Part shown: positions 10,961-57,156 of the stretch, one piece after another
How positions within the stretch are numbered: position 1 is the first letter of the stretch
Layout of the letters: each line of letters begins with the position of its first letter
From: Miscanthus floridulus
Taxonomy: Eukaryota > Streptophyta > Magnoliopsida > Poales > Poaceae
Direction of reading: 5' to 3'
DNA: 64,000 bases
NCBI RefSeq assembly: GCF_019320115.1
Contig: NC_089593.1
Coordinates: 17,964,870-18,028,869, forward strand
Notes under the pieces: generated by a model
Told to the model about the DNA's origin: nothing
The model's input: the letters and a program-made list of their open reading frames with translations, nothing else
The model's database searches: none
Position numbers and translations under genes: made by a program

Positions 10961-11194
10961 GAGTGAGATGGACGTAGTTCCAGCCCTGTTCGTTAATAAG
11001 TTCAAGCGAACGGGGCAAGTTCGGCACACGCTTATTGCTTTATCGATTGATCCGACTGTCTGAGTTCGGGCATGTTCGGCTGGTATTAAAGTCGGATGAT
11101 AAGTCAACTAAAACTGTTTTGTTCACTAGTAGAGAACAGACCTTTGATCCTCGGTCAAAATAGGCTCTAGTCCTGGAATTTTTTGCGCCCGGGA

Positions 11195-11455: not shown

Positions 11456-11777
11456 TATATTCCGGCCGTCTCCTTCCTCCCCGAGCCCGAGCTCAGCACA
11501 TTTTGAAGCTCACTGCAGTAGTGTTCTTGCTTCCTCCCTCCCTCCATTGTTCCTCCATCCATTCTTCGATTCCTCCGTCGATTTCTTCGATTTCTCCGTC
11601 GATTCTTCAGTTGTAAAGGTTACCAATCTTATACTCTCATTTTTCACTATTGTCTTATTTCATTTTGTTCACTATATATATATATATGGTTCTTTATTGT
11701 AGTTTTTTCATTTGTAAGCAATTTGAGCTTAAAATCACTTCAAGCTTGCATATTTACATGAAAGAAGGTTAAAGTAG

Positions 11778-12880
11778 CTAGTTGAACTTGCGGACTGTGT
11801 TCATCTCGGCGACCATGTTCTCTGCCGAGCGGTAACGGACGTCAAGGAGGAGCTTTGATTCTACGAGGGAGAGCGGCAATGGTCGTGGAAGACCGTGTTC
11901 CCTTCCTCGTAGAATCGGAGCTCTTCCGTGGCAAGTACGGTGCCGTCCGGTAGAGAAATGCTCGCCGAGATGATCACGTAAGCAAGTTCAACTAGTACGG
12001 ATGGTTATTTATTCACATGTCCCGATATCATCGCAGTAGTCTGTCAATCACCGTACTTTTTATTTTAACTTTTTATGAAATGAAAAATTTAGAAAATAGT
12101 TAGAAAATTATAGAAAATCCGTACTAGTTGAACTTGCGGACCGTGTTCAGCTCGGCGAGCATGTTCTCTGTTGAGCGGTAACGGACATCAAGGAGGAGCA
12201 TTGATTCTACGAGGGAGAGCGACAACGGTCGTGGGAGACCGTGTTCCCTTCCTCGTAGAATCGGAGCTCTTTCTTGACCAAGTACGGTGCCGTTCGGTGG
12301 AGAAATGCTCACCGAGATGATCACGTAAGCAAGTTCAACTAGTACGAATGGTTATTTATTCACATGTTCCGGTATCGTCGCAGTAGTCTGTCAATCACCG
12401 TACTTTTTATTTTAACTTTTTATGAAATGAAAAACTTAGAAAATAGTTAGAAAATTATAGAAAATCCGTACTAGTTGAACTAGCGGACTGTGTTTATGTC
12501 GGCGAGCATGTTCTCTGCCGAACGGTAACGAACGTCAAGGAGGAGCTTTGATTCTACGAGGGAGAGCGGCAACGGTCGTGGAAGACCGTGTTCCCCTCCT
12601 CGTAGAATCGGAGCTCTTCCGTGGCAAGCACGGTGCCGTCCGGTGGAGAAATGCTCGCCGAGATGATCACGTAAGCAAGTTCAACTAGTACGGATGGTTA
12701 TTTATTCACATGTCCCGATATCGTCGCAGTAGTCTGTCAATCACCGTACTTTTTATTTTAACTTTTTATGAAATGAAAAACTTAAAAAATAGTTAGAAAA
12801 TTATAGAAAATCCGTACTAGTTGAACTTGCGGACCGTGTTCAGCTCAGCGAGCATGTTCTCTGTCGAGCGGTAACGGAAC
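11778..12880. repeat. Tandem repeats, ~346 bp, with internal palindrome
   Basis: Units beginning near TAGTTGAACTTGCGGAC start at about 11778, 12124, 12470 and 12818, giving three full copies and one partial. Each holds a palindrome whose arms are GATTCTACGAGGGAGAGC and the inverse within TCCTCGTAGAATCGGAGCTC, then an AT-rich tail (TTTTATTTTAACTTTTTATG). The array lies just upstream of the transposase start, so it may form part of its promoter or leader. Confidence 0.85.
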
Positions 12881-23330: not shown

Positions 23331-23647
23331 ACAGTAATTTGTGAGCGGAGAAAAAGCGGCCGCGGAACAACCAAAGTTTGGTGCGAAAAACTTGCCAAAA
23401 TTTGAACTTGGCATTCTCGTGCTATAGAAGTGTCGCGTGTAGGAGTACCAAACAATGGCACAACCCCTTTCAATTTCATCAAAAAAGAAAAAAAAAAGAA
23501 ATGGTACAGACCAGTCGTGTCTCTCGTGCCCAATGGTGTCCAGTCTGCTAATCACCATCTAACGAACAGAACGCAAGTAGTACGGGCATTATGCATGAGT
23601 CACGGGCCCACCCCCATGTTCTTCTCGCTTCCTCCTTAATTGCAGCT
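23331..23647. repeat. Second copy of the 317-bp duplicated segment, upstream of OVATE gene 1
   Basis: Identical to 1-317. This copy joins smoothly to the CT-rich leader (CTCCCTCTCCATCC...) and coding sequence of the OVATE gene, so it is the natural context. It contains a CAAAG-rich upstream region and an A/G run (about 23481-23500), but I see no convincing TATA box. Confidence 0.95.
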
Positions 23648-29866: not shown

Positions 29867-32800
29867 TGTAACACCTCGGGTGTTTAAATACTAAAACTTG
29901 CCATGTCATCATATGCATTGCAAAGTATTTGGCCTTTAGTGAAAATTTTGATATGCATACACTAAAACAAGTTTACCTTTATGTGGTATGTGTTGAATTG
30001 TATTGTTTGAATCAAGTTCAAAATTTGGTTTGGATTTGAATTTCCAAGAAAACCCTGATTTTCAGTATTTAAATCCTACCCTGGAAACTCATTTCAAAAT
30101 CTAAGCATATTTTGGGGTTGAGCCTAAAAGCAAAAGTGTAGAGCTTGTCAAATTGTACAAAGTTTGTTTTTGGAGTTTTCAAAGTTGTTATGAAAAATAT
30201 AAAGTAATTTGAAAAGGCGAAATTCTTTAAATGTCCCCTATTTGAATTCAAATTTGCATTTCAAAATATAGACTGAATTAGGGGGTGGTTATAAAAGCAA
30301 AGTTGTAGAGCTTTGAATTTTGAGCAACTTTTATTTTTGGAGATTTTTGAGTTGTTATACAAATTTAGGAGTAATTTGGGATTTAAAGCGAGTGGCATTT
30401 TGGTAATTAGTTGGAACAGTGGAAGCAGGCACACTCTCGCCGTCGATGAGCCTCCACCGTCTTCTACGCGCGTCCTCAGGCGCCACCTCTGGCCTTGACG
30501 TGTCCGCGTCGTTGTGGCGTGTCAAGCGCACCGTTCCCCGCCGCTTTTCGCCCGCTGGTTAAGTCTGGAACGACGTCACCGTTCTTCTTTCTCTCCTCTG
30601 TTTTCCCAACGTCGCCGCCGTAGCTCCGTCGAGCTCGCCTCGCCTCCTCAGCGCAATCCAGCCTCGGCTAAGCTTGCCACAGCTTTGCCAGTCCCTTGTG
30701 CAACTAGTCCTCCAGCCCTTGTTGCTTGATTGCGCCGGGAACCGCCGTTCTTTGCCTTTTTTCCTCGCGGCCGGCAGCGTCACCAGTGACCCCGTTTCAC
30801 TATGGCCAGAGCTCTGTGGTGAGTCTCAGACCTTGCGGAGTCTTGCTCTAGCTTCACCTTGTTCTCGTGATGCTCTATGACCGGTTGATTGCTCCTTTTG
30901 TCCACCGCAGCCACCGGAGTAACATCGTCGCCATTGCTCGCACCGCCGTGATCACTGTGACCATCGACTCGCCTCACCGTTGTTCCTCCGGCTCGTCCAT
31001 CGCCTTCAACGTGATCGGGGTGAGCTCCTAGTTCTTCCCAAGTTGTTTGTTTCACCGTTACTGGTCTCCTGTCGCCGGCGTAGCGCTGCCGTGCAGTCGT
31101 GGCCGCCATGGCCGGCGTAGTGCTTGGTCCAGTTCGTAATTGATCTCACTAGTGCCACAAATCGATGCACCGTGACGTAGTGATCATGCTCGTACCTTGG
31201 CCGTCGCTAGTGACCTCGCCGTCGGCGAGATTTCGCCGGTCAAAGCTGCTGTCGCCGCGGTCAGCGCGAGGGGTGGAAGATGACATGTGGGGTCGGTTGT
31301 CAGTGACTCAGCGTTCAAAATGGATTTTTCTATTTTGCAAATTTGAATGAATAGTGATAGTTTTTGTTATTTTTGTGTAGAATTATTTAGCGTTCCAAAA
31401 ATTATGAAAATTTTTGTGTGACCTCTCTGTGGTGTATATTATTTTAAAAAAATATGAAATTTTGTTTTTCAGTATTTTTTAATGTGATGAAAATTGCTCA
31501 ATTAATTAATAAATGGTTTTCCATGATTTTTCTAGGCTTAATTAATTATCCAAAAATTATGAAAATTGTTTTGCCACTTAGTTATCATGTGATGAACATT
31601 TACAAATTTTTTTAGCTCAATTAAAATAAGTTGATTTATTTCATAATTTTGAATTAAATAATTAATTCATAAAAGCAAATAGTAACATTTAATGATTTAG
31701 GTTTTGTTTGATTTTTGGATTGAGTGATGACCTTGGGTCATTAGTTGGTAATGATCCTTGGCAATTGATGTATGTGTTACAAAAAAGGTTTAGTTCATTT
31801 GACTTGCAACTGTACCGCGAAGGAAAGTTGTATTCGAATTGTTAATTTTGCATCCATCATCAAGCATCATGTTTCGTATCCCGCATCATGTTAAACATGG
31901 CATTGTTACTACGTGTAGTGAACGAAGGTGAACACGTGGTTGTTAATCCAGTTGTGGAGGAAGTTAATCTGTTTGTTGAGGTCGGATCGGATAATTGTGG
32001 AACATCGTAGGAACCTAACTTTTCCGTCAACGAAGGCAAGCCCCGGATGCATTTAACCCTACCTTGTGTTTTATAAATTTTAACGCTTTTGCTTTTATAT
32101 ACTGCATTAAGTGATTAGGAGTCAAGTGGAAACCTAATTGGTGCATTACCAACCTTGTTTTTTTATATCTACCTTGTTACCAGTTTTAATTCGTAAATGC
32201 CTAGTTATGCTTAGTCCTGCTTAGCCGGGTGATTACCTGTCACCTGAGAGTTTTAAATAGATCTTTGGTTACTTATGTTATCATGAGATATGAGCATGTG
32301 GAGTAAGAAATCTAGACCGGGCAGACTCGGTGTGTGAGAGCCACAAGACATGGAGGTCTTGTGAGCGGCTTCTTTCCGCCTGTATCGATTAAGGTCCGTC
32401 CGTTGTTGAATTGCATGAGGTGAGACTTTGTAGTACTAACCACATACTCCAGTAAGCCTTAACTCAGAAATTCTATTACGAGAATGGCTACTCGCGCACT
32501 AGGAGTGGAGAGATGGCGAGAGTAGCGTGTACCCACGTGGCTTTGGGCTGGATTGGTGGAGTACTGTATTCTCGGGTGGCGCGGACCCGTTCTTATTTTA
32601 GAGGACCTAAGGATAGGTTGATATATGTAAGTCGGGGACCTACATATGTCGTGTGGTCTGGAATCCCTAGCTGGGTTTACAATCGGTTCAAATCGTCGTT
32701 GCTCCTCAGTTATGGAGACTCAACGCACTGTTCATCATCATAGTTTAATAACTGTAACTTGAGTAAGGTTTGAGAAAGAGTTTGATATGAAGCTCATGAT

Positions 32801-33450
32801 CTCATTATGGATCATGGCAGATTCATATATGGTACTTATAAGGTTTTACATATTGAAGTAAAGAATTTTGTTAAAGAGCTTTTACGCAAAAGAACTTGAT
32901 TATTGCTAAAGCCATACCTTGAATCTCTGAGCCTACATTCCTGAGTCTTCTCAGTTTTTATTTTGGTTAAGTCTTGTTGAGTACTTTTGTACTCAGGGTT
33001 CGTTGACCCTTGTTGTAGGTGAGCCTCATGAGCAGGTCTATTTTGGACCTTGCTGCATAACTGTTGTTCATGTCGATGACGATAAGTGAATGTGTGATCC
33101 TTGGGCAGGATGCTTATTTTGTGTGTTATGTTTATGTTAATTATGCCACTCCACTACTACTATGGTTTGTAATAATAATCGTACTCAGTTTGTAAGGTTT
33201 GAAACAACTAGTTTGTAAACTAAGTTATCGTAAGACTTTCGCTATTTTACTCTGATGTATATATTTGAATAAATGTTGTAATACTGCAATGACTCTGTAA
33301 TGTGATCCTCCTCAAAAATCGTGGATGATTCGGGGTTCCCCGAGGACACCCAACAGACTTCTTAAATTACTAGGAACATATGCATAGTCGTCAGAGGTCG
33401 TTGGACAGTGACAAGTGCATATGGGTCCTATAATTTAGGAGGTTCTACCA
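29867..33450 (+). repeat. 5' LTR of chromovirus A
   Basis: 3,584 bases. It starts TGTAACACCTC and ends GGTTCTACCA immediately before CAGAGTGGTATCAGAGC. A GC-rich block (30420-31270) is flanked by AT-rich sequence. Open frames in it differ between the two LTRs and are not supported as genes. Confidence 0.92.
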
Positions 33451-33455
33451 CAGAG

Positions 33456-33467
33456 TGGTATCAGAGC
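33456..33467 (+). other. Primer binding site of chromovirus A
   Basis: TGGTATCAGAGC is complementary to the 3' end of plant initiator methionine tRNA. It lies five bases inside the 5' LTR. Confidence 0.9.
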
Positions 33468-33854: not shown

Positions 33855-34430
33855 ATGGCTCGCACCAAGGTAACGCCCCGTAAGTCCGTTGGACCTAAAG
33901 GAGTTCCTCGTCACCAACTTGCCCCTAGAAATGACGGTGCTAGCAGTAGCAGCTCTAGGCCTGATCCCTAGGCAGAGATATAGAGGCTTTCAACAGAGTT
34001 AGCACAGGCTACTAGAGATAGGGCCTTGGATGCCATCCGGGTGGGCAAGTTAAAGGATCAATTGAAGTGTCGCACCACCGCTCATAAGAACTGCGAGCGT
34101 ATGTTAATTCGTATGGTGGAAGGGAGAAATGAGGCTTGGCATAGGTAAGATGTAGCTAGAGCTAGAGCTAGAGCACATGAGCTAGAATTTTATGTAGAAG
34201 ATTTAGAAGAACATAATACTACTTTGCATGAAGAAGTCCATAGGCTGAGCAACCTCCTGGATCCAAATCATGAACCTCAAGCTAATGTAATGGACCCTGG
34301 TGTCGTCATTGCTGATGATGATGAACTTGAAGAGGAAGAAGAAGAAGATCCAGAAGAATTAGTGATGGTTGATGAAAGTGATAATGAAGGCGGAAATGTT
34401 TCTGGAATGGATACCGATCATGAGGTTTGA
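33855..34430 (+). pseudogene. Histone H3 tail-mimic protein of chromovirus A
   Basis: The ATG at 33855 starts a 191-codon frame beginning MARTKVTPRKSVGPK. Against the H3 tail (residue 1 after Met), A1, R2, T3, K4, T6, R8, K9, S10, G12 and K14 are kept and a QLA follows. Next come a Ser-rich spacer (33945-33965), a region of likely coiled coil (ELAQATRDRALDAIRVGKL; HELEFYVEDLEEHNTTLHEE) and a strongly acidic tail (ELEEEEEEDPEELVMVDESD). It has no H3 histone fold, so it is not a histone gene. Three in-frame stops (33969, 33981, 34146) read as CAG or CAA to TAG or TAA. It lies between the primer binding site and gag and is homologous to the B protein at 41916. Function is unknown; the H3-like tail suggests interaction with H3 modifiers or readers. 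Confidence 0.8.
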
Positions 34431-34603: not shown

Positions 34604-35730
34604 ATGCCTGGTACTCGTGCTTTGAATATTCCTGGTTCTTCGCATGACGAGGGTGGTGTTCCTGATCCACCACCAGTTCCACCAACTTTGGCTGATGCTA
34701 TAGCAGCACTGGTCCATGTGACCATAGAAAATGCTCGATTGCTTCGAGAGATAGCTCAGAGTAATCAGAATATGGTGCAAGGAAACCGTGGCCGCAATCA
34801 TAACAGGCAGGAGGCTATGTATGTTGATTTTACAGATACAAGACCACCAGTGTTCACCAAGGCCGATGAACCACTAGAGGCTGATGATTGGCTTCGGACC
34901 ATGGAGCAGAAATTTGATCTTATTCCATGCATAGAGATGCAGAAACCTATGTTTGCTGCCCAGCAACTTAGAGGTGCAGCCGGTGCCTGGTGGGCAAATC
35001 TAGTGGCTATGCAACCAGCTGGCATTCCAATAACTTGGGCTGAGTTCCGTACTGCCTTTAGAGCTCATTATATTCCAGAAGGAGTGATGGCCATGAAGCT
35101 GGATGAGTTCCTTGCTTTGAAGCAAGGGGATCAAATGGTTATGTAATATGTGGGTAGATTCAATCACCTATCACAGTATGCATCTAAACATGTCAATACA
35201 GATGCCAAGAAATAGAAATGGTTCATGCGAGGTCTGAATACCAAATTACAAACAATGATGACGGCATGTGCCAATGTTACTTATCATGAGGCAGTGAATA
35301 TTGCAATTGCTTCTGAGGAAAAGTATCGGCAGCATAAGGAGATCAAGAAAAAGAAGAGTGTGCCGTCTGGATCTTTTGGTGGAAATCAAAAGAGGTAAAA
35401 GATAATCTATCATCCAGTCAACCATTATCGTCCTCCTTATCGTCCACCGTAGTTCCAAGCTGAGCAATAGTCAAATGTCCGTCCTGCTATAACCTACCTG
35501 AATTCACAACAGACAAATGCTCCTGGTGGCAATGCTCCAACATCCCAAGGTCACAATTATCCATGTTACAATTGTGGAAGGTCCGGTCATTTCTTCAGGG
35601 AATGTCCGTATCCCAAGCAGGCTAATCAAAATTATCAGAAGGCCCCTGCCAATCAACAATAGGGTCAAGCACAGAACAAGAACCATAATCAGAATGCTCA
35701 GAAGAGCAAAGATGAAAGGAAGATAGGACG
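34604..35730 (+). pseudogene. Chromovirus A gag
   Basis: The ATG at 34604 (MPGTRALNIPGSSHDEGG) directly follows GAACAG, a possible splice acceptor. The capsid region runs through DTRPPVFTKADEPLEADDWL, AWWANLVAM and WAEFRTAFRAHYIPEG. A zinc knuckle CYNCGRSGHFFRECP lies near 35571-35615. Gag would assemble the particle and package the RNA. At least six stops (for example 35144 and 35213, and near 35397) each fit CAG or CAA to TAG or TAA. The boundary with protease is approximate, as gag and pol share one frame. Confidence 0.85.
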
Positions 35731-37150: not shown

Positions 37151-40100
37151 TGTAACACCTCAGTGTTAAGCATGCATTACCATTTCATCCCATGAGCATA
37201 ATCATCATCACCTCATGCATAAGCATCATTCATGCATTTCATTTCGAAAGAAATGAAGTATCATTTCATGTGGTGCTTAAGTTGATTGAAATTCATTATG
37301 TTTAAAACAATGTGAAATGCCATGCTCATGTTTGGATGCCATTATTTCTTGTTTTGATCACTAGGATAGCTTATAAATATTTAGGATACAAACTGGAGCA
37401 AAGTTTGTATTTAAATTTTTGCCAAATTTTGCTTTTAAATAATTCTTCAAAATTAGGGTTTTGAATTAATATTGATGTTTATGTTGTAATTCAAAATCTA
37501 TTTGGAATTTGACTTTGGTCTTAAAAGCAAAGTTGTAGAGAATAAATTTCTAAGCAACTTTCATTTTTACACCAACTTTTGAAACTGCTTTAAAATAGTT
37601 CAAAATTTCGTTTGAATGAAAAAGGATTTGAAAATAATTTGAAAAAGATCAATTCACCTAAGTTGGGCCTCGCGCCTCACTTCTGGCCCATTAGCCGAAG
37701 CCGGCCCAGCGCTCCTCACCGCGCCCGCGCCTTCGCCTCGGCCCAGCTCGCTCACCCGGCCTACCTCAGCGCCGAAGCTGCGCCCGTTCCCGCGCGCCGC
37801 GCCTGACCGACGCCAGAGCGCGCACGCCGCGTGGCCGCCATGCGCCGGTGAAGCTCGCCGCACGTCACAGCCGGCCTGCCCAGCCCTCCACGCGCTCGCC
37901 TTCACCTGCCGACCGCGCCGCGCTCCCCACTTCCCTCTTCACTCCGCCAGCCGCAGCGCAGCAGCAATAGCAGCAACTCTCGCGCACGCGCTCGCCTCCG
38001 CCACTGCGCGCCTCGCCAGAACTAGCTCGCCCGGCCGTCCCAGCTCGCCGTCGACCACTCCATCTCGCCAGTAGCTCTGCCTCCACCACGCGCACCTCGT
38101 GCTCGCGTCGATTTGCCGTGGTAAGCTCCCCTTCCTCGGGAATCACTCGCCGGAGCACGACCAAGCTCACCGGAGAGCTCCGCTCCCGTGGACACCCCCT
38201 CTCCGCTCCACTTCTCTCCTTCCTTTCACGCGCGTGAGCACCGCCTTGCCCTCACGAACCTCGTGCGCGCCTGCCCGTGCCCTGCCGTGGCCAGAGTCGG
38301 CGTACCACCGATGAGCCATGCCACCGCTCCGCCATGCATGCCATCGAGCCCCATTCTGAGCTCCTCCCGTGCCTTCTCTTGGTGCACTGTGTCCACCTCG
38401 TCGCGGGTGAGCTGCTGGTGGTGACCGCGCCGCCGGCTAGCTCACCGTCGGCGAAGAGCCGGCCGGTCAGCTCGGCCCCTGTTTCGGTCTGACCGACAGG
38501 TGGGGGCCATTGACCCGTGGGGGCCCGCTCGTCAGCGCCCTGACTCGGGTCTAGGTGCACAGCACCGGGTGCACCCATCGTTTTCATCGGCTGATTTTTG
38601 AAAAGGATTTAAGAAATGATTTTCAGATTTCTATTTAAATGCTTTGGGAATTTATAATTTGCTCAAAATGGCTCCAGATTTGTTGAAACAAATTTTGTTA
38701 TGTTCCTTGTCACCAGATCTACATGATAAAAATATTGCATGTCATTTTTGAGATACTTTAATGTAGAGCTTTATTTAATTCTTGATATTGCTAATATCTT
38801 GTAGAATGTTTAGTAAATCCTATATGTATCAGAAAAATATGATTCCAAGTTTGTTACTCTTCTTGTGTAATGTACTTTCTAGGAAAAATATATGTCATGC
38901 ACGTCCTGTAGAAAAATTATGAGGTGTAGTTCAAGTGCCTTTAATGGCTGATTTTTGTTATTTTTGCTAGAGAGCAAAATTTGTATAAAACATGCATGTG
39001 ATAATTTTTGTACAGTGATTATTTACTATGTAGAACATAGGAAAAATATTACATCTGTTGTTTGACACTTTTCACAGTACAAAGTATTTTCATGCTCATA
39101 ATTAGGTCCAAGCTTGTAATTTTTTTAGGCTATTCCACTTATCCAAATGCCATAAAAATTTGATGGTAGACTACTAAGGGTAGTACTGTGCTATGGTAAT
39201 TTTCTAAGATTTTTCTATGCTATAAAAATAGATGTTACTATTCAAACCTATTATTAATTAGGGTTTAATCAAATGTTGCTTTATGCATGATTAAGAAATT
39301 AGTGAAGCTTTGCTGTATCTTTGAAGCATTTAATGAGATGTGTTGACGTAGCATATTAGTAGTAGAAGAGAATGCAGTAGATAACATGTGCTTGTAGTAC
39401 ATGTTCTTGGATGATGTTGACTACCTTGCATGCAAGCATATTCATTGTGTTCATTTCATCCGATGCACCTTTTGCATAAGCACTTATGCACCTGCATCAT
39501 ACAAGATCGCAAACCGAGAGCCCGGTCGTCATACCCGAGGAGCCCGAGGAGCAGCTCGAGGTGCAGCCACAAGAAGTGACCGAAGCAGACGAGGAGGACG
39601 TTGAGGAACTTCTGGAGTGCCCTGATCATCGCCCGAGCTCCTTCGAGAGAGGCAAGCCCCGGAGCATTTTTCTCCCTAGTTTACGATTATTAATTAATGC
39701 TTTACTTTAATTGATGCATTACGTTCAGGAGTTGTTTGCAACCGTTGCTGCATTATACCTTGTCTACCTTTGTTATACTATATCCTTGTTACCCTGATAT
39801 CCGTAGTCGAGTCAATGCTTAGCTGGCTTAGACCGGTAGAAGTCGAGTGATTTCCTCTCACCTGCGAGCTATAGGTGGTTACCTGGATCTGCTTGGATAA
39901 CTATGTAGTCATGGTATAACTAAGTGTTAATTTGAAGTTGAGATCGGACGGAGACTTACAGAGTTTTAGACTGTAGTGCTTTCCATCTGTGTCGATTAAG
40001 GACCGACCGTTGTTTGGCCTCAGGTCATGTTGAACGCATGCCTTACATTTAGCTGGCTGAATAAAGTACCTTTTGACCGCGAAGCTAGGAGATTATTCGG

Positions 40101-41125
40101 GCCGAGTAGATTGCCCGCAGCGCACTATATCGGAGCAGGTGTGGTAGGACACGGGGGCGCGATGATAAGACCGAAAGGCAGTCGGTCGGCCCCCGGGTAC
40201 ATGTGGTTCCTGGCAAACTCAAGATTTTCCTGGATAGTTGACTCGGTGACCGATACCTCACTTTAGCGGGTGAGTGAGGTTTGTGTAAGGAATAAATTAC
40301 CAGTTGGTTAATAATCGATTCGAATCGCCATCGTTCACTGGATAGTGAACACTTGACTTGAGTTACTTCATTGTAGTAATGTTGATGGAACACTTGGACA
40401 GTTATAATGAATATGACATTATGGAAGTTGTTAATGATCATTGGTTATCATTATTTGCTTAATCACATGCTTGCTCTAGTATAGGTGCAAATGTAGTCGA
40501 TAGGTTAATAATAATTAACTTGACAATAATGCTTTTGGAAAGGTTCTTGAAATGCTAAAAATGCCTCTTTTTGCAAATGAGTCAGCTACCCTACTATAAA
40601 GCCCTTCATAATCCTTGGTGTCACTTTATTTTCGATTATGTCGGGTAAGTCTAGCTGAGTACCTTCTCGTACTCAGGGTTTTATTTCCCACTTGTTGCAG
40701 ATGGGCAGATGTATTACGGCTACTGTATCAACTGCCTTTATCCTACGATGGGTGATGCTTAGGACCATGAGCATGGTCATTCCTTACGTCTCGTCTAATG
40801 CTTTTGTTGGAGATGATCATTAGTTGGCACTGTATTTGAACTCCATGTGTGTGTGTGGTTTTGAACAAATGGCTTCCACTACTTTTATTTGAACTCATTT
40901 TGTAATAACTATGTTTAAACTCTGATGTACCTGTGATGCGAACTTTTATGTAATATGTGATGGTGACCACTAAACTTATTATGATCTTGGTTGGTATGTG
41001 AGTTGGTTTGAAATCCTTCGTGATTTCACGGACTACCGGGTTATACGGGCTTAAGTTTGCTAAATTGTCTGCTCTGGCGGGTGATTTTCTTACTTAATTT
41101 CGTATAATTGGTCGGTTCTGTTATA
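37151..41125 (+). repeat. 5' LTR of chromovirus B
   Basis: 3,975 bases. It starts TGTAACACCTCAGTG and ends TTCTGTTATA, followed by GCAGGCATCAGAGC. The very GC-rich block at 37670-38570 contains chance open frames on both strands. The segment at about 37230-37435 is absent from the 3' LTR. Confidence 0.93.
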
Positions 41126-41139: not shown

Positions 41140-41915
41140 ATGGTTTAGCGTGTTACTGTTCACAAGTGTATTTAGAACAAAAAGGTGTTTGAAAAACTTG
41201 AGTTCCAAACTAAAAAGTGTGCCAGTGGTCATATCCTTTATGCCCAGTTAAGGACTCTAGGTGGCTTATTTAAGTACTGACTTGGGGTTCTTGCATCATA
41301 TTGCTCTTTCGTTGCTCATACGGCGTGCTATTGTATGAGTGCCACTTATTTGAGTGGTAGTGTATGGATCATTTGCCTCTACGCCATGGTAAGTGTGAGT
41401 TATGAGAGCATGATCGGATACACCGCCAATCTAGGGTGAATGCTTATAAGATGCTGGAGTAATTACATGTTCTACGCATGTTTTACAAAGGTATCTCATG
41501 TGTGGGTATTCCATCTGTTGAGGCGATGCCATCAATAGGACGATGGTTCGGGTAGTTACTACCATTGTACACGTATCTGGGGATTCGTGTAGAGCGTGTA
41601 GATAAAATTTACTGCTTTTATGCATTCATTGGAAATTGGGCTGAAATAAATCTTCTGCGGGTACATAACAACGTTATCGTGTAGAACATATTAGATACGT
41701 ATTTGAGAGATCGTTTGTATGCCACCAAATTCGTCGCTAGAAATTATTTATTTCATAAGTTTGTGAGAACGTACGGCACGTACATACATCATATTATTTG
41801 TGCATTTCATTCATGTCATGCATTCCTCCCCTTATAAATTGATTATCTCATTTTGATAAAAGTTGTATCACCTAAAATATGTTCCCATGGGGTAATAAAA
41901 GAAATTTTGCTACAG
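41140..41915 (+). other. Leader of chromovirus B before the H3-mimic ORF
   Basis: About 775 bases with no coding signal. It ends TTTTGCTACAG directly before the ATG at 41916, a good match to a plant splice acceptor, so the ORF may be expressed from a spliced RNA. Confidence 0.4.
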
Positions 41916-42905
41916 ATGGCCCGCACGAAGCAGACCGCCCGTAAGTCCACCGGAGGAAGGGCACCTCGACGTTAGTTGGCCCTGAGGGAGCACCGCACCA
42001 CGGACACCTTCTTGAGCGAGTTTGGCATGCCGACCTTGCTTTGGAGAGTGCTCCATGATGTGGGGTACCCAGAGGGTCAAGAGCCGGTGTACTCTTGGAA
42101 TGAGAGCCAGTTAGCAGAGGATGGACTTGTAGTGGTAGAGATCACAGTTCCTGCTCTTGGTGATTCTCCGGAATGGGATGGTTGGCACTTGGAGTTTGAG
42201 GGTCGCACTCCTATTGAGGGTGCAGAGGGAGCAGCTTTCCATGTCATCAGGGACATCATGAGCAGATTTCCCAGTGAGCTTGCAGCAGCTCTAGCTGGCA
42301 CCTTTCCTAGGGACGATCCTCATGATGCTATTTGGGTTCAGCCTCAGGGAAGTGCTTTGGTCAGAGGTCCAGCTGAGGGATAGGCTAGCGACAACCATGC
42401 TATGAGTGCTATGTTTGCTGCTATCAGAGCGTATCAGGGTCTTGAGTGTACCTACTGGACTTTGACTGGCTTGCGTGGTGAGGATAAGCTCAAGGAAAGA
42501 AAGCAGAAGAAGAAGCAGGCGCGTGCTATAGCTAGTTTGTAGGAGCAGTTGGCTGATATGAGCTTATAGCGGGACCAGGCGGTAGAGAGAGGTGATAGAG
42601 CTATGCAGCGGGTGCATACGTTGACTTAGGCCAACAACAATGCAGACCACATGATTGGACAGTTGGTTCAGGAAAGGAATGAAGCCTGGAACGAGAGGGA
42701 CCTTCTGCTGCAGAGGGTCAATGAGCTAGAGGAGTACAACATCAACCTGCACGAGGAGTTTCACGTGCTCTACAATGGGGTTGGCCCATATGCTCCTCCA
42801 GACGCCGCTGGCATGGACATCGACGACGACGACGAGGACGAGCCTGTAGTTTCACCTGGGGGCGATGGTGACGTCTCCGACCTCGACGACGGCCCTGAGG
42901 AGTAG
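41916..42905 (+). pseudogene. Histone H3 tail-mimic protein of chromovirus B
   Basis: The ATG at 41916 opens MARTKQTARKSTGGRAPRR, then TAG, then LA. Compared with H3, residues 1-13, 15-17, 20 and 21 are identical, with K14R, K18R and Q19 (CAG) changed to TAG. After residue 21 similarity ends. A compact-looking domain follows (about residues 30-150, with WRVLHDVGYPEG and WDGWHLEFEGRTP). Next are a basic segment (KLKERKQKKKQAR), a likely coiled coil (LVQERNEAWNERDLLLQRV; NELEEYNINLHEE) and an acidic tail (DIDDDDEDEP). In total there are 329 codons with five stops (41973, 42381, 42540, 42567, 42627), all TAG where CAG fits. The coiled coil and acidic end match the A protein. It lacks the histone fold. 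Biochemical role unknown. Confidence 0.88.
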
Positions 42906-43269: not shown

Positions 43270-44399
43270 ATGACAAATACTCGTCGTACCACTTATGAAG
43301 CCGCTGAGACCGGTGCTAATGGTGCTGGGACCGGTGGTGGTGGTGGTGGAAACCACATCAACAATAATGAGCCCCCCATGAACCGCATTTGCCACCTCCT
43401 CCCCCGCTCACCCCAGAGGTGTTCTTCACACAGTTGCTCAGGAGTCAGCGCAACACGGAACAATCCCAGAAGAACATGGAGGATTTTCTGCATACCATTG
43501 CCAACAATGTTCAGCGCGGTAACAATCAGGGTGGTGGCAATGTTGTGAATCAGTTCAGCAGCTTCAAAGATTTTATGGACACCAGGCCGCCAATATTCAA
43601 GGAAGCAACAGAACCACTCGATGCTGAAGAATGGATCAACACTATGGAAGATAAATTCCATGTGTTGAGGATGACTGAGGTATTAAAAACTGAGTATGCT
43701 ACACATCAGTTGCAAGGACCAGCGGGAATGTGGTGGAAGCACCATCGCACAACCTTCCCTCCAAATGCTCAGATTACGTGGAGAGAGTTCGATGAGGCCT
43801 TCCGTGGAGTTTATATTCCACCCGGGCTGACCGAGATGAAGTTGCGAGAGTTCTTGGCGTTGAATCAGGGCACCAAAACCGTGACGTAATATTTGCATGC
43901 TTTCAACAACTTGTGCCGTTATGCTCCCGACATGGTTGACACCGATGCTAAGAGAATCACCAGTTTCAAGAGAGGACTCAATCCAAAGATGATGAAGCAT
44001 GTGGGTACCAACACTCGCGCCAGATTCAATGACTTTATCAGTGATTGTCTAAAGCTGGAAAAGAACAACAACGCCAGTACCGCAACCAAGACTCGCAAGA
44101 GAGCACTAGAAGGTGGTCCGTCCTAGGCAAGAGCACCTGCGGGAGGTCGTCCTACCTATCATCCATCTGCACCTGGCGCTAGGTTCAGGCCACCACAGCA
44201 GAGAGGTCAGAATTTCAGGGGACCATAGAAGCCTTACAAGATGGTAGTGCAGTCCAACAAGGCAGCCACAACTGTGGTACAGGGCAGTTCTAAGGGAGCT
44301 GTGGGATCTGCTGGTACAGTAAGGGGACCCTGCTACAATTGTGATCAACCCAGCCACTTCTCAAGGTTCTGTCCTTATCCGCTGAAGAAGAAGCAGCAG
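43270..44399 (+). pseudogene. Chromovirus B gag
   Basis: The ATG at 43270 follows ATGCAG, a possible splice acceptor, and opens MTNTRRTTYEAAE with a Gly-rich stretch. A frameshift near 43375 moves the reading frame to TPEVFFTQLLRSQRN. The capsid region includes DTRPPIFKEATEPLDAEEWI, MWWKHHRTTFP and WREFDEAFRGVYIP. A zinc knuckle [15 protein letters not shown] lies at about 44332-44376. Stops near 43887, 44124 and 44227 fit CAA or CAG to TAA or TAG. Gag would form the particle and bind RNA. Confidence 0.88.
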
Positions 44400-47300
44400 A
44401 CCTATACTGCTCGGGTGCATAGTACGACTGTGGATGAGATTCCTGAGAGAGAGCCCGTAACCACTGGTAAGTTTCCTATCAACCAAAACCCTGTAGTTGT
44501 TCTATTTGATTCTGGATCATCGCATTCTTTTATGAGTCAAGCATTTGCACGGAAACATGAACAACTATGCATAGAATTGGGTTATGGTTACCGTATGAGT
44601 TCAGTGGGGGCTGATGTTTTGACCAATCAGATGGTTCGAGGGGCAACCCCTGAATTAGGTAGCAGAAAGTTTCGAGTAAACTTGATAGTTATGCCTGGAC
44701 TAGTTCTGGATGTCATTATAGGGATGAATTGGATGAAGGATTGGAGAGCAGTTATAGATACAGGAAGTCGGGTACTTACCCTTAAGGATCCCCTGGGTGA
44801 GGGTACTTTCCAAGTACCATTGCCTCAGAGAACGGACCTTATAAGTGTGACATGTGCTACTGAAGTTATTCATATTCATCATATTCCGGTAGTGTGTGAG
44901 TTTCCGGATATATTCCCAGATGAGTTACCTAGTCTTTCGCCAGATAGGGATATTGAGTTTGGAATTGAGTTAATCCCCGAAACAGCTCCGATTTCAAGGA
45001 GACCCTATCGGATGCCTCTGGATGAATTAGTTGAGCTGAAGAAGCAACTAGAAGAGTTATCGAAAAAGAGGTTTATCCGGCCAAGCAAGTCTAAATGGGG
45101 ATGTCCTGCCTTGTTTGTGAAGAAGAAGAAAGAGGGCACGTTGAGAATGTGTGTGGATTACATGCCACTTAATGCTGTAACCATCAAGAATAAGTATCCC
45201 TTGCCTCATATCGATGTTCTATTTGACCAGTTAGCCAAGGCTAAGGTGTTCTCCAAGATAGATTTGAGATCCGGTTATCATCAGATCAAGATTAGGCCAC
45301 AAGATATACCGAAAACCGCATTTTCCACCAGATATGGGTTGTATGAGTATCTTGTCATGTCCTTTGGCTTGACAAATGCTTATGCATACTTTATGTTTTT
45401 GATGAATATAGTTTTCATGCCAGAATTGGATAAGTTTGTGGTTGTGTTCATTGATGACATTCTGGTGTACTTCGAGAACGAGAAGGATCATGAAGAACAT
45501 CTAAGAATTGTCTTGACCAGACTTAGAGATCATAAGCTGTATGCTAAGTTTAGCAAGTGTGAATTTTGGTTGAAGAAAGTTCCTTTCCTTGGTCACATTC
45601 TGTCAGAAAATGGAGTTTCAGTCGATCCAAGTAAGGTGCAAGAGGTTATGGATTGGAAGGCACCGACCACAGTTCCTGAGGTTAGAAGTTTCTTAGGATT
45701 AGCCAGTTACTATCGCCGTTTCATACCAGACTTCTCGAAGATTGCCAAGCCAATGACAAGTCTACTACAGAAAGATCACAAGTTTGTGTGGACAGAGGAG
45801 TGTGAAGCAGCTTTCCACACCTTGCGGAAACTATTGACCACTGCTCCTGTTCTAGCACAACCGGACATTGAGAAACCATTTGATGTGTTTTGCGACGCAT
45901 CGAAAACTGGATTGGGTTGTGTTCTTATGCAAGAAGGAAGAGTCATTGCTTATGCCTCACGTCAATTGAGAAAGCACGAGGTCAACTATTCGACACATGA
46001 TCTTGAACTTGCTGCAGTTGTGCATGCCCTGAAAATTTGGAGACATTATCTACTTGGTAATGTATGCAATATTTTCACAGATCACAAGAGTCTCAAGTAC
46101 ATCTTTACCCAACTAGAACTGAACATGAGACAACGAAGATGGTTAGAATTGATCAAAGATTACAACCTGAATGTGCAGTATCATCCTGGAAAGGCCAATG
46201 TAGTGGCAGATGCTTTGAGTAGAAAGTCATATTACTTGAATGTGCATCCATTACTTGAAGATGGGTTCGATCTAATGCATCCTGCTGTGTTACATAGTAT
46301 TCAGATTAGTTGCTCGTTGGAGAGTAAGATAATAGAAGGCCAGAAAATAGACAAAGGAATATTTCACATCAAAGAGAAAATAAAAGAAGAGTCGTCTAAG
46401 CATTTTAGAGTGGATGAACAGGGCGTGTTGTGGTTTGACGACCATCTTGTGGTTCCCAAGGATCGAGAGCTTAGGAATAAACTCATGGATGAAGCTCACC
46501 TTTCTAAGCTATCTATCCATCCGAGAAGTAGTAAGATGTATCAAGAACTGAGGCCTCGTTATTGGTGGACCAACATGAAGAAAGAAGTTACAGCCTATGT
46601 TGCCAGATGTGACACATGTTGTAGAGTGAAAGCTATTCATATGAAACCTGCTAGTTTGTTGCAACCATTGTCCGTACCTAGTTGGAAGTAGGATGATATA
46701 AGTATGGATTTTATCTCGGGTTTGCCCACTACTCAAAAGGGACATGATTCGATTTGGGTGATTGTGGATCGTCTTACCAAGACCGCTCATTTCTTACCTG
46801 TCAAGACAAATTATCGACCACCTCAATATGCCTAGAAGTATATTGTAGAAATTGTAAGGTTGCATGGCATACCAAAGACTATAGTATCTAATAGAGGGCC
46901 ACAGTTCACGGCTCACTTTTGGGAACATTTGCACAAAGGCTTGGGAACTAGTTTGATTCGTAGTACCGCTTATCATCCTCAGATAGATGGTCATACTAAA
47001 CGAGTTAATGCTGTTCTAGAGGATATGTTAAGAGCCTATGTGTTGTCTTCTAGGGGTTCATGGGAGTCATGGTTACCTTTAGCTGAGTTTGCTTACAATA
47101 ATAGTTATCAAGAAAGCATCAAGATGGCTCCATTCGAAGCTTTGTATGGCAGAAAATGTAGAACGCCACTGAATTGGGTCGAGCCAGGAGAAAGAAGGTA
47201 TTATGGCATTGACTTTGTAGAAGAGGCCGAGAAGAAAGTTCATATTATTCAACAAAATATGAAGGCGGCCCAATCACGTCAGAAAAGTTATGCAGATAGA

Positions 47301-47743
47301 AGAAGGAGACCCCTTGTGTTTGAAGTTGGTGACTATGTTTATCTGAAGGTCACGTCAATGAAGAAGAAACGGTTTGGAGTCCGAAGAAAGCTTGCCGCTA
47401 GATTTGTAGGACCATACAAGATCTTGGAAAAAGAGGTCTAGTAGCTTATAAGATAGAGTTACCTGAGACAATGAGTACCGTATTTCCAGTTTTCCATGTA
47501 TCACAACTCAAGAAGTGTTTGCGTGTTCCGAAGGAAAGAATAGAACCTCGAGGCATCAAACTCAAATCAGATTTGGTGTATCGTGAGCAACCGGTCCGTG
47601 TTTTAGACACTAAAGAACATGCTACTCTGAATAGTGTGGTGAAAACATACAAGATACAGTGGAATCATCATGATGAGGGAGATGCAACTTGGGAAACGGG
47701 AGAATATCTACAAAAAGCTTATGAAGATTTTTATAACAAATAG
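44400..47743 (+). pseudogene. Chromovirus B pol: protease, RT, RNase H, integrase, chromodomain
   Basis: The frame is open from upstream of protease ([11 protein letters not shown] near 44505) through reverse transcriptase ([13 protein letters not shown]; catalytic FIDDILVYF near 45450), RNase H ([13 protein letters not shown] near 45890; DHKSLKYIF) and the integrase zinc finger ([26 protein letters not shown]). Stops at 46689 (Trp to TAG) and 46833, and a frameshift near 47437, break the rest. In the integrase core the second Asp is Asn (SNRGPQF) and the Glu region reads TKRVN instead of TERVN, so the catalytic triad is lost at two positions. The C-terminal chromodomain (VVKTYKIQWNHHDEGDATWE) ends at 47743. 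Chromodomains guide such elements to heterochromatin. Confidence 0.9.
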
Positions 47744-51560: not shown

Positions 51561-53409
51561 GTTAACCACTGCACCAGTATTAGCACAACCAGATATCGAG
51601 AAGTCATTTGACGTTTATTGTGATGCTTCTGGTATTGGTATTGGATGTGTATTGATGCAAGAAGGCCGAGTCATTGCCTATGCTTCTAGACAACTTAAGC
51701 AACATAAAGAGCACTATCCCACTCATGATTTAGAGTTAGCAGCAGTTGTCCATGCTCTGAAGATTTGATGGCATTACTTGCTTGGGAATACATGCCATAT
51801 TTATATAGATCACAAGAGTTTAAAGTATATCTTTACTCAATCAGATTTGAACATGCGACAAAGAAGATGGTTAGAACTGATTAAAGATTATGACTTGGAA
51901 GTACATTATCACCCTGGTAAGGCAAATGTAGTTGTAGATGCCCTCAGTCGAAAGAGCCATTGCAATTGTCTGACAGTAAGAATAATGGGTTTGACTTTAT
52001 GTCAAGAGATGGAGAAGTTGAATATAGAGGTAATTCAACAAGGTAGTTTGACCAATATAACTATTGAAGCCACTATTTGAGATCAGATTATTGCTGCTCA
52101 GAAAGAAAACAAGGGTATAGCCCATATCAAAGAAAGAATCAAGAATGGGAAAGCGGAATGCTTCAAAGTAGATGATGAAGGTGTGTTATGGTTCAAGAAT
52201 CGCCTAGTGGTACCAAAGGTTCCTGAGTTGCGACAGTCAATTCTTGAAGAGGCACATGCTACTAGGTTATCTATTCATCCAGGAAGTAATAAGATGTACC
52301 ATGACTTGAAACAAAGATTTTGGTGGACCAAAATGAAGATAGAAATTGCCCGGTATATACCCAAGTGTGATACTTGTCAAAAGGTGAAAGCTATACATTT
52401 GAGGTCTGCTGGAGAGTTATAGCCATTACCTATTTTAGCTTGGAAGTGGGAGGATATTAGTATGGACTTTATTGTTGGTCTACCCAAGACATCAAAAGGT
52501 TTAGCAAGAATCATGAGTCTACATGGGGTACCAAAGACCATAGTGTCAGATTGGGGTACACAGTTTGTCTCTAGCTTTTGGAAACACTTGCATGCTTCGT
52601 TAGGTACCAAACTACTATATAGTACAGCTTATCATCCACAAACCGATGGTCAGACTGAAGGGGTCAATCAAGTACTTGAAGATATGTTAAGATGTTGTGT
52701 TCTTAACTATTCCAATAAATGGGATGAATGTCTATCTTTGGTTGAGTTCTCATACAATAATAGTTATTAGGAGAGCATTAGGATGGCTCCATTTGAAGCA
52801 CTCTATGGTCATAGATGCAGAACATCACTGAGATGGTCTGAGCCCGGAGAAAGAAGGTTCTTTGGAGTTGACCTTGTGAAAGAAACAGAAGACAAGGTTA
52901 GGCAAATACAAAGTAATTTGAAGATAGCTCAGTCCCGACAAAAGAGTTATGCAGATAAATGACGTAGACCTTTAGTGTTTAACAAGGGAGATTTTGTATA
53001 TCTGAAGGTATCACCAATGAAGGGAGTTACCTGTTTCGGTGTTAAAGGTAAGTTGGCACCTCGATATATTGGACCATTTCAAATTTTAGAGAGGTATGGA
53101 AAAGTGGCATATCGCTTGAAGTTACCAGAATATCTTTCAGCTGTACATGTTGTGTTCCATGTTTCTCAATTAAAGAAGTGTCTCCGAGTGCCTGAGCAGA
53201 ATATTGAGGTTGAAGGAGTGGAACTTGAACCTGATTTGACCTATTCCGAATATCCTATCTGAGTTCTGGATCAGAAAGATCGTGTCACACGAAGAAGGAT
53301 GATCAAGTTCTACAAGATACAATGGAATCAACATTCCAAAGAAGAAGCTACTTGGGAATCCGAAGATTACTTGCTAGAAAAATTTCCAGACTTTCTTACG
53401 TTAATATAG
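51561..53409 (+). pseudogene. Chromovirus A pol, 3' part: RNase H, integrase, chromodomain
   Basis: This resumes the reading frame cut at 37150. RNase H ([26 protein letters not shown]) is followed by the integrase zinc finger (HATRLSIHPGSNKMYHDL; CDTCQKVK). The integrase core starts MDFIVGLPKTSKG but then jumps to RIMSLHGVPKTIVSD, a loss of about 35 residues relative to the B protein. WGTQF replaces the usual RGTQF. The chromodomain (KFYKIQWNQHSKEEATWE) ends at 53409. Stops near 51767, 52078, 52420, 52768, 52960 and 53260 each fit CAG, CGA or TGG changes. Confidence 0.88.
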
Positions 53410-53558
53410 AGTAATGTTAGTTGAGCTCGGTTGTTGCAAGTTGTGTTTTGTAAAGGGACCTCAGCTATTTATGGATAGATTTTGTATGTGTTCGCGTGAC
53501 ACATTTCCTTTTCCATTACTTACCCTATGGCTTTGAATCTCGGGACGAGATTTCTTTT

Positions 53559-53569
53559 AGGGGGAAGGA
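53559..53569 (+). other. Polypurine tract of chromovirus A
   Basis: AGGGGGAAGGA lies immediately before the 3' LTR. Confidence 0.85.
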
Positions 53570-53570
53570 T

Positions 53571-56500
53571 TGTAACACCTCGGGTGTTTAAATACTAAAA
53601 CTTGCCATGTCATCATATGCATTGCAAAGCATTTGGCCTTTAGTGAAAATTTTGATATGCATACACTAAAACAAGTTTACCTTTATGTGGTATGTGTTGA
53701 ATTGTATTGTTTGAATCAAGTTCAAAATTTGGTTTGGATTTGAATTTCCAAGAAAACCCTAATTTTCAGTATTTAAATCCTACACTGAAAACTCATTTCA
53801 AAATCTAAGCATATTTTGGGGTTGAGCCTAAAAGCAAAAGTGTAGAGCTTCTCAAGTTGTACAAAGTTTGTTTTTGGAGTTTTCAAAGTTGTTATGAAAA
53901 ATGTGAAGTAATTTGAAAAGGCAAAATTCTTTAAATGTCCCCTATTTGAATTCAAATTTGCATTTCAAAATGTAGACCGATTTAGGGGGTGGTTATAAAA
54001 GCAAAGTTGTAGAACATTGAATTTTGAGCAATTTTTATTTTTGGAGATTTTTGAGTTGTTATACAAATTTGGGAGTAATTTGTGATTTAAAGCGAGTGGC
54101 ATTTTGGTAATTAGTTGGAACAGTGGAAGCAGGCACACTCTCGCCGTCGGTGAGCTTCCACCGGCTTCTACGCGCGTCCTCAGGCGCCACCTCTGGCCTT
54201 GACGTGTCCGCGTCATCGTGGCGTGTCAAGCGCACCATTCCCCGCCGCTTTTCGCCCGCTGGTTAAGTCTGGAACTACGTCGCCGTTCTTCTTTCTCTCC
54301 TCTATTTTTCCGACGCCGCCACCGTAGCTCCGTCGAGCTCGCCTCGCCTCCTCAGTGCAAACCAGCCTTGGCTAAGCTTGCCACAGCTTCGCCAGTCCCT
54401 TGCACAACTAGTCCTCTAGCCCTTGTTGCTTGATTACGTCGGGAACTGCCGTTCTTTGCCTTTTTTCCTCGCGGCCGGCAGCGTTACCGGTGACCCCGTT
54501 TCACCATGGCCAGAGCTCTGTGGTGATTCTCAGACCTTGCGGAGGCTTGCTCTAGCTTTGTCTTGTTCTCGTGATGCTCTATGACCGGTTGATTGCACCT
54601 TTTGTCCACCGTAGCCACCGAAGTACCGTCGTCGCCGTTGCTCGCACCGCCGTGATCGCTGTGACCGTCGACCCGCCTCTCCGTTGTTCCTCCGGCTCGT
54701 CCCTCGCCTTCAACGTGATCGGGGTGAGCTCCTGGTTCTTCCCGAGTCGTTTGTTTCACCGTTACCGGTCTCCTGTCGCCGGCATAGCGCTGCCGTGCAG
54801 CCGTGGCCGCCATGGCCGGCGTAGTGCTTGGTCCAGTTTGTAATTGATCTCACTAGTGCCACAAATCGATGCGCCGTGACGTAGTGATCATGCTCGTACC
54901 TTGGCTGTCGCCAGTGACCTCGCCGTTGGCAAGATTTCACCGATCAAAGCTGTTGTCGCCGCGGTCAGCGCGAGAGGTAGAAGATGACATGTGGGGTCGG
55001 TTGTCAGTGACTCAGCGTTCAAAATGGATTTTTCTATTTTGCAGATTTGAATGAATAGTGATAGTTTTTGTTATTTTTGTGTAGAATTATTTAGAGTTCC
55101 AAAAATTATGAAAATTTTTGTGTGATCTCTCTGTGGTGTATATTATTTAAGAAAAATATGAAATGTTGTTTTTCAGTACTTTTTGAATGTGATGAAAATT
55201 GCTCAATTAATTAATAAATGGATTTCCATGATTTTTCTAGGCTTAATTAATTATCCAAAAATTATGAAAATTGTTTTGCCACTTATAGTTATCATGTGAT
55301 AAACATTTACAAAAATTTTGAGCTCAATTAGAATAAGTTGATTTATTTCATAATTTTGAATTAAACAATTAATTCATAAAAGCAAATAGTAACATTTAAT
55401 GATTTAGGTTTTGTTTGAATTTTGGATTGAGTGATGACCTTGGGTTATTAGTTGGTAATGATCCTTGGCAGTTGATGTATCTGTTATGAAAAAGGTTTAG
55501 TTTGTTTGACTTGCAACTGTACCGCGAAGGAAAGTTGTATTCGAATTGTTAATTTTGCATCCATCATCAAGCATCATGTTTCGTATCCCGCATCATGTTA
55601 AACATGGCATTGTTACTACGTGTAGTGAACGAAGGTGAACCGTCGTAGTTAATCCAGTTGCGGAGGAAGTTAATCCGTCTGTGAGGTCGGATTGGATAAT
55701 TGTGGAACGTCGCAGGAACCTAACTTTTCCGTCAACGAAGGCAAGCCCCGGATGCATTTAACTCTACCTTGTGTTTTACAAATTTTAACGCTTTTGCTTT
55801 TATATACTGCATTAAGTGATTAGGAGTCAAGTGGAAACCTAATTGGTGCATTACCAACCTTGTTTTTCCATATCTATCTTGTTACCAGTTTTAATTCGTA
55901 AATGCCTAGTTATGCTTAGTCCTGCTTAGCCAGGTGATTACCTGTCACCTGAGAGTTTTAAATGGATCTTTGGTTACTTATGTTATCATAAGATATGAGC
56001 ATGTGGAGTAATAAATCTAGACCGGGCAGACTCGGTGTGTGAGAGCCACAAGACATGGAGGTCTTGTGAGCGGCTTCTTTCCGCCTATGTCGATTAAGGT
56101 CCGTCCATTGTTGAATTGCATGAGGTAAGACTTTGTAGTACTAACCACATACTCCGGTAAGCCTTAACTCTAAAATTCTATTACAAGAATGGCTACTCGC
56201 GCACTGGGAGTGGAGAGATGGCGAGAGTAGCATGTACCCACGTGGCTTTGGGCTAGATTGGTGGAGTACTGTATTCTCGATTGGCGCGGACCCGTTCTTG
56301 TTTTAGAGGACCTAAGGATAGGTTGATATATGTAAGTCGGGGACCTGCATATGTCGTGTGGTCTGGAATCCCCAGCTGGGTTTACAATCGGTTCAAATCG
56401 TCGTTGCTCCTCGATTATGGAGACTCAACTCACTGTTCATCATCGTAGTTTAATAACTGGAACTTGAGTAAGGTTTAAGAAAGAGTTTGATATGAAGCTC

Positions 56501-57156
56501 ATGATCTCATTATGGATCATGGCAGATTCATATATGGTACTTATAAGGTTTTACATATTGAAGTAAAGAATTTTGTTAAAGAGCTTTTACACAAAAGAAC
56601 TTGATTATTGCTAAAGCCATACCTTGAATCCCTGAGCCTGCATTCCTGAGTCTTCTCAGTTTTTATTTTGGTTAAGTCTTGTTGAGTACTTTTGTACTCA
56701 GGGTTCGTTGACCCTTGTTGTAGGTGAGCCTCATGAGCAGGTCTGTTTTGGACCTTGCTGCATGACTGCTGTTCATGTCGATGACGATAAGTGAATGTGT
56801 GATCCTTGGGCAGGATGCTTATTTTGTGTGTTATGTTTATGTTAATTATGTCACTCCACTACTACTATGGTTTGTAATAATAATCATACTCAGTTTGTAA
56901 GGTTTAAAACAACTGGTTTGTAAACTAAGTTATCGTAAGACTTCCACTATTTTACTCTGATGTATATATTTGAATAAATGTTGTAATACTGCAATGACTC
57001 TGTAATGTGATCCTGCTCAGAAATCGTGAATGATTCGGGGTTCCCCGTGGACACCCGACAGACTTCTTAAATTACCAAGAATGTATGCATAGTTGTCAGA
57101 GGTCGTTGGACAGTGACAAGTGCATGTGGGTCCTATAATTTAGGAGGTTCTGCCCA
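53571..57156 (+). repeat. 3' LTR of chromovirus A
   Basis: 3,586 bases, starting TGTAACACCTCGGGTG and ending GGTTCTGCCCA before CTTTG. It aligns along its whole length with 29867-33450, with scattered substitutions and small indels. Confidence 0.92.

Follow-up and report, generated by a model that had tools for sequence, protein, structure and literature searches.

A histone H3-tail copy at the N-terminus of ORF0 in nested long-LTR Ty3/gypsy retrotransposons of Miscanthus floridulus

The DNA considered here is a 64,000-nucleotide stretch of Miscanthus floridulus contig NC_089593.1 (positions 17,964,870 to 18,028,869, forward strand; hereafter the window), which holds two long terminal repeat (LTR) retrotransposons, element B nested in element A, both with an additional open reading frame (ORF), ORF0, ahead of gag. 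Our subject is the ORF0 protein, which in element B begins with a near-exact copy of the N-terminal tail of histone H3 and continues into a domain resembling the double-stranded RNA-binding domain (dsRBD), a coiled coil and an acidic end. The parts of the two ORF0s are placed as follows:

41916..42905, + strand: ORF0 of element B, with H3 tail, dsRBD-like domain, coiled coil and acidic end; 5 in-frame stops
41916..41981, + strand: H3-tail mimic of element B, Met plus residues 1-21
42006..42293, + strand: predicted dsRBD-like domain of element B ORF0, alpha-beta-beta-beta-alpha
42396..42770, + strand: long helix or coiled coil of element B ORF0, with approximate borders, aligned to the model of relative P0015
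42789..42902, + strand: acidic C-terminal end of element B ORF0
33855..34430, + strand: ORF0 of element A, with diverged H3 tail, coiled coil and acidic end, no dsRBD-like domain; 3 in-frame stops
33855..33923, + strand: H3-tail mimic of element A, one residue longer

The frame that opens at 41916 reads MARTKQTARKSTGGRAPRR*LALREH... and closes with a stop at 42903-42905; it thus consists of Met and ARTKQTARKSTGGRAPRR, a stop, LALREH... and then non-histone sequence, 329 residues in all. The original prediction, made from the sequence of the window, was that an otherwise non-histone protein of a retrotransposon carries a near-exact H3 tail and, like H3, starts with Met-Ala, and this is borne out: the tail is identical to H3 at 13/13 positions over residues 1-13 and at 18/21 over residues 1-21, a tblastn search of the window with H3 matches element B ORF0 with an E-value of 1.8e-07 over 29 residues, and a phmmer search of PDB sequences with its first 32 residues (X at the stop) returns histone H3 with an E-value of 7.5e-08. 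These two values, together with shuffled sequences that reach only 9/21, rule out chance likeness. Beyond residues 1-21, beginning Met-Ala, the protein departs from H3, having a dsRBD-like domain, a coil and an acidic end and no detected histone fold; no Pfam histone family matches element B ORF0 up to an E-value of 1, and the whole protein has just two weak Pfam matches, at 0.51 and 0.66. The coiled coil and acidic end expected after the tail are present, and the domain previously called unknown has a predicted dsRBD-like fold. One of the five in-frame stops lies inside the tail, and with five of them this copy of ORF0 is dead. The same tblastn search gives a second, weaker match at 33855-33929 in element A (E-value 0.006), where ORF0 reads MARTKVTPRKSVGPKGVPRHQLAPR followed by a serine-rich linker, coil and acidic end.

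The tail recurs among relatives of this protein. Three protein searches yielded, among the matches listed (18/18, 120/445 and 120/370), 237 distinct proteins, 35 of which match H3(1-21) at 10/21 or better, the best match among 4740 shuffled proteins being 9/21; one of the 35, P0018, is an insect protein with a real H3. The tail-bearing relatives sort into seven sequence types, A to G (labels and sorting made in this analysis). Open relatives with the tail, which the original prediction had named as a thing to look for, do exist, and types A, F (P0015) and G (P0107) supply them at full length; in types B, C and D the tail-bearing proteins are open but fragmentary, with 113-180 residues, P0227 (type E) lacks an inner part, and many other relatives are fragments or start after the tail. 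Scans of collections of viral contigs and of general genome contigs found no relative, as expected for plant DNA.

Within the plant's own genome (2.68 Gb in 2420 contigs) a first look gave 1437 candidates for B-type DNA, 9195 for P0041 and 12070 for P0107, unverified and overlapping between queries. Among the B copies L001-L028, 27/28 keep at least 17 of the first 22 residues (L011 is frameshifted within the tail) and 28/28 carry one or more stops in the frame read; by hand count of the tables, the match is free of stops in 112/150 top-scoring A-type places and in 18/30 top G-type places. The A-, B- and G-type sets were found with queries containing the tail; with a tail-free query, P0019, 19/20 regions upstream of the best 20 of 128 own-genome matches fit H3(1-21) at 15/21 or better, the 20th (L107) being broken. 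Capture of an H3 fragment in a single copy is ruled out by the presence of the tail also in element A, in own-genome B, A and G copies and upstream of the matches to the tail-free query. The tail, taken in the original prediction as a trait of element B, is not peculiar to it: numerous copies of this already known kind of ORF carry it, and they belong to several types.

When the types are compared, no segment of the protein is as well conserved as the tail. One protein stood for each type, except that for B, C, D and E one protein supplied the tail and a second, assigned to the same type, the coil. On this basis mean pairwise identity is 0.78 for the tail (21 pairs), 0.58 for the linker (10 pairs), 0.59 for the dsRBD-like domain (10 pairs), 0.50 for the coil (21 pairs) and 0.35 for the acidic end (21 pairs), and the tail is more alike than the coil in 21/21 type pairs. 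We counted codon differences in 107 own-genome tails: 31 of type A including the window copy, 27 of type B, 30 of type G and 19 of the C/D group. The B tails were anchored by BLAST and 27/28 were kept, L011 falling below the limit of 17/22; in the C/D group 19/20 regions were used, the broken L107 being unmatched. Between groups the proportion of synonymous differences (pS) is 0.61-0.76 and that of nonsynonymous differences (pN) 0.11-0.24, with a ratio of 0.17-0.36, and by these counts the synonymous sites of the tail are near saturation. Within groups the ratio is 0.23-0.69, highest (0.69) in the decayed B group; decayed copies were kept in the count, which raises pN/pS and works against a finding of selection. 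This check of the dN/dS kind, which had been proposed for the tail codons, finds them not neutral between types. At the level of sequence, then, the H3-tail mimicry of these ORF0s is real, and selection has maintained it in several types of an abundant plant retrotransposon.

The residues that are kept are unevenly distributed along the tail. Among the 107 own-genome tails, K4, K9 and L20 are each found in 107, T6 in 106, A1 in 104, S10 in 103, R2 in 100 and R8 in 96, while 33 tails, type A accounting for 31 of these, have lysine at position 14 and 0 have it at position 18; position 14 is arginine in most copies of three of the four own-genome groups. K4 and K9 are written into the patterns by which tails of A, G and C/D were cut out, and losses could thereby be hidden; the numbers lost are 0/30 for A, 0/30 for G and 1/20 for C/D. 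In the database set of 37 tails (34 relatives, P0018 and the two window copies) K4 is found in 34 and K9 in 36, and 30/30 G-type tails have T11A. Judged by these counts K9 is the firmest kept site and K4 the next, and the acetyl-lysine positions are mostly lost. Acetylation had been raised earlier alongside methylation; K14 and K18 are unlikely as the point of mimicry, because K14 is mostly arginine and K18 is kept in none of the 107 own-genome tails.

The sequence context of the start codons bears on how such a protein might be made:

41907..41915, + strand: TTGCTACAG, acceptor-like, directly before the ORF0 ATG of element B
43270..43272, + strand: gag ATG of element B, directly after CAG
34604..34606, + strand: gag ATG of element A, directly after CAG

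Four copies compared, a single one from each of types B, G, C and D, have the identical TTGCTACAG before the ORF0 ATG (6/6 pairs), and the 31 bases upstream of it are 19-55% identical among them; type A has TTCCTACAG plus one T before the ORF0 ATG. All of the ORF0 and gag ATGs of elements A and B (4/4) are preceded by AG at most one base away, against 4/36 (A) and 6/58 (B) AG-preceded ATGs in the leader-to-gag region, and the probability of this by chance is about 9e-5, a post hoc figure for two related elements. The AG is kept in single copies as well: in 28/28 B copies (one with ATA for ATG), 30/30 A copies, 29/29 G loci read (of 30) and 17/17 C/D regions with an in-frame ATG (3/20 have none). 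No gag starts were found with the motif used in the A and G loci tried. The leaders contain 20 (B) and 9 (A) upstream ATGs. From the acceptor-like sites alone we infer that ORF0 is made from spliced RNA, with translation starting exactly at Met-Ala; a conserved initiation context is the alternative. In unspliced RNA of G-type ORF0 (L059-L088, 29 of these 30 loci having been read) another ATG lies in frame, 12 codons ahead of the tail Met, and splicing at the CAG or TAG ahead of the tail would take out this upstream ATG and free the tail.

The middle and C-terminal parts of the protein were examined by structure models. The middle domain has a predicted dsRBD-like fold, alpha-beta-beta-beta-alpha, and is absent from types A and G, which retain the tail. 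The model of P0015 has a helix at residues 158-296, with a predicted local distance difference test (pLDDT) score above 90 over residues 191-290, and the H3 tail is modelled at low confidence. The Pfam family dsrm does not match the element B protein up to an E-value of 1, nor is it among 25 of 50 families listed for 35 members; Foldseek gave the dsRBD-like domain no E-value below 0.001 and found no match to viral models with an E-value of 0.001 or less.

The remaining features of the two elements are these:

37151..41125, + strand: 5' LTR of element B, flanked by GTTAA
47790..51560, + strand: 3' LTR of element B, flanked by GTTAA at 51561-51565
44241..46691, + strand: pol ORF of element B, with Pfam protease, reverse transcriptase, RNase H and the start of integrase
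47597..47725, + strand: chromodomain-like C-terminal stretch of element B, Pfam Chromo E-value 0.0017, below the curated cut-off
29867..33446, + strand: 5' LTR of element A, BLAST limits
53571..57151, + strand: 3' LTR of element A, BLAST limits
33456..33467, + strand: primer-binding site of element A, TGGTATCAGAGC

A and B are long-LTR Ty3/gypsy elements with a chromodomain-like integrase end. Their LTRs are 96.0% (element B) and 95.4% (element A) identical over aligned parts of 3685 and 3583 bases respectively, both above 3.2 kb, and about 204 bases of the 5' LTR of element B (37242-37445) are unmatched in its 3' LTR. The primer-binding site TGGTATCAGAGC of element A we take to be of the initiator tRNA-Met type. 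The chromodomain-like stretch of element B scores 18.7 bits with Pfam Chromo against a cut-off of 25.1, and that of element A was read by eye; in both (47597-47725 and the element A part of 51562-53570) the first and third aromatic cage residues are absent by eye, as in type II chromodomains. Elsewhere in the window, 1-317 (at its left edge) and 23331-23647 are 317-base stretches with 100% identity, perhaps the ends of a recent insertion or duplication; 3531-4241 is an array of overlapping direct repeats about 78-84% alike, and 11189-12880 is dense in direct and inverted repeats of about 140-760 bases.

What the tail is for can be approached through the pattern of its conservation. We incline, by a modest margin of belief, to the reading that ORF0 is a multivalent H3-tail mimic that engages readers or writers of K9 and, in most types, of K4, and the elements would probably be imitating chromatin in order to handle the host silencing machinery. 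Translation of ORF0 would use a spliced RNA whose junction lies immediately before the ATG; the Met of ORF0 would be removed, leaving Ala1 free on a tail that is presumably unfolded, in keeping with its low confidence in the model; and the coil would form oligomers showing several H3 tails at once. Host readers or writers of H3K9 and, in most types, of H3K4 would then be occupied or recruited by the displayed tails. The likeliest targets are the machinery of silencing by H3K9 methylation, or else demethylases and readers that hold on to Ala1-Arg2 and K4, and the element would in this way reduce or direct the silencing to which it is subject. Where the optional dsRBD-like domain is present, it may add a contact to RNA silencing. 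A bolder version, which we offer tentatively and consider less probable than its negation, is that a great many retrotransposon copies in a grass genome code for oligomers displaying H3 tails, which the host would methylate and read as if they were nucleosomes: a counterfeit H3K9/H3K4 substrate that titrates or redirects silencing, with the dsRBD-like arm reaching to the Dicer/DRB pathway in some types.

Several observations weigh against this reading. Arginine takes the place of K4 in P0015 and P0022, both of type F, and in P0227, of type E; 28/31 A-type tails have T3A, and Q5 varies. The partners are a guess from residue conservation: K9 and K4 are kept and the acetyl-lysine positions mostly are not, which hints at readers or writers of K9 and K4. 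The 320-residue protein P0181 has the dsRBD-like domain and the coil but an unrelated, tail-less N-terminus, and many database proteins begin past the tail, at MPTLLW, perhaps owing to gene calling or to broken proteins. In maize, sorghum and Brachypodium no significant BLAST hit of rice Retrosat2 ORF0 is reported (PMC3485330); some ORF0s may therefore lack the tail, and its generality among them cannot be claimed.

Four other explanations, all ranked below a mimic of K9 and K4, come in falling order of likelihood. The tail could be a basic import or chromatin-delivery signal by which importins or H3-carrying histone chaperones bring ORF0 to the nucleus, histone marks being unaffected, and for a basic, N-terminal and probably unfolded (low model confidence) tail on a protein with an acidic end this has some appeal; yet a basic signal needs neither the residue order of H3 nor T6, S10, P16, L20 and A21, which are kept at near-saturated synonymous sites. 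Moreover, K14, which is central in the importin literature, is arginine in most copies of three of the four own-genome groups and position 18 is never lysine, and we regard this explanation as unlikely. Somewhat less likely again, the tail could serve assembly or integration control by being bound by the integrase chromodomain, or by gag, of its own element. The chromodomain-like C-terminal stretch found in B by Pfam (below the cut-off) and in A by eye would provide a candidate partner, and type II chromodomains, which are without cage residues, are described in PMC6317226 as having no known partner; but since the stretches look type II by eye, with no aromatic at the first and third cage positions, they offer no known H3K9me pocket, and since homologues with ORF1 and no ORF0 are reported from Arabidopsis, soybean, poplar and grape (PMC3485330), ORF0 is not needed there.

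It is improbable that ORF0 is mainly a suppressor of RNA silencing acting through its dsRBD-like domain, with the tail as an accessory, given that types A and G retain the tail without that domain and that the domain itself has neither a Foldseek E-value below 0.001 nor a dsrm match among the Pfam families listed. We give least credence to the tail being a relic, an H3 fragment captured as a convenient start for the ORF. Capture of the start of an H3 gene would indeed be its simplest origin, and single copies decay freely (28/28 B copies have a stop, and the within-B tail pN/pS is 0.69), but it is the tail that changes most slowly between types, with pN/pS of 0.17-0.36, and this would not be so for a relic. 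If the mimic of K9 and K4 is right, an unexplained ORF0 would gain a concrete, testable function, and in plants ORF0 could also be recognised by antibodies raised to H3K4 and H3K9 marks. The selected 20-residue, N-terminal, in-register H3 tail allows a direct test of how transposons respond to H3K9-based silencing.

Besides histone H3 itself, three known systems bear comparison with this protein. Protein-binding dsRBDs that are partners of Dicer, namely TRBP dsRBD3, Loquacious dsRBD3 and DRB7.2:DRB4, resemble the ORF0 middle domain in predicted fold, but sequence identity is 12-17%, no dsrm match is among the Pfam families listed, and no KKxxK-like motif is found by eye in the ORF0 domain.

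An ORF0 ahead of gag-pol is known in the grass elements Retrosat2, RIRE3, RIRE8, FRetro3, ZMsat2, Sorsat2 and Brasat2 (PMC3485330), and these known ORF0s are without a settled function. Like those of the Retrosat2/RIRE3/RIRE8 type described there, ours is an extra ORF between the 5' LTR and gag-pol of a grass Ty3/gypsy element with long LTRs, and in that type ORF0 diverges more than ORF1. The extra ORF of A and B lies between the 5' LTR/primer-binding site and gag, as in ORF0-bearing Retrosat2-like elements of the Tekay clade, the clade in which PMC6317226 places Retrosat-2. The LTRs of A and B begin TGTAACACCT (8/10), and because the LTR ends TGTCACACCC...GGGCGTGACA, given for Retrosat2 and RIRE8 only, are absent from the window as strings, A and B are, by their sequence, like these two families and not members of them. 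The words histone and coiled are absent from the accessible text of PMC3485330, which infers a hydrolase, acyltransferase or transporter from homology models, and in a search of open-licence papers we found no prior report of an H3 tail in a retrotransposon protein.

Histone mimicry has so far been known from viruses, as short H3 motifs or whole viral histones. PMC10208167 gives the H3 mimics influenza NS1 (ARSK) and SARS-CoV-2 ORF8 (ARKS) as well as whole viral histones, which are a separate case; the ORF8 mimic is disputed (PMC10833455). As described in these sources, NS1 and ORF8 share with ORF0 the copying of a modifiable stretch of the H3 tail by a non-histone protein of a mobile genetic agent; they differ in that the viral copies are short motifs inside or at the end of the protein, whereas that of ORF0 is about 20 residues long, N-terminal, in register with H3 and present in several types.
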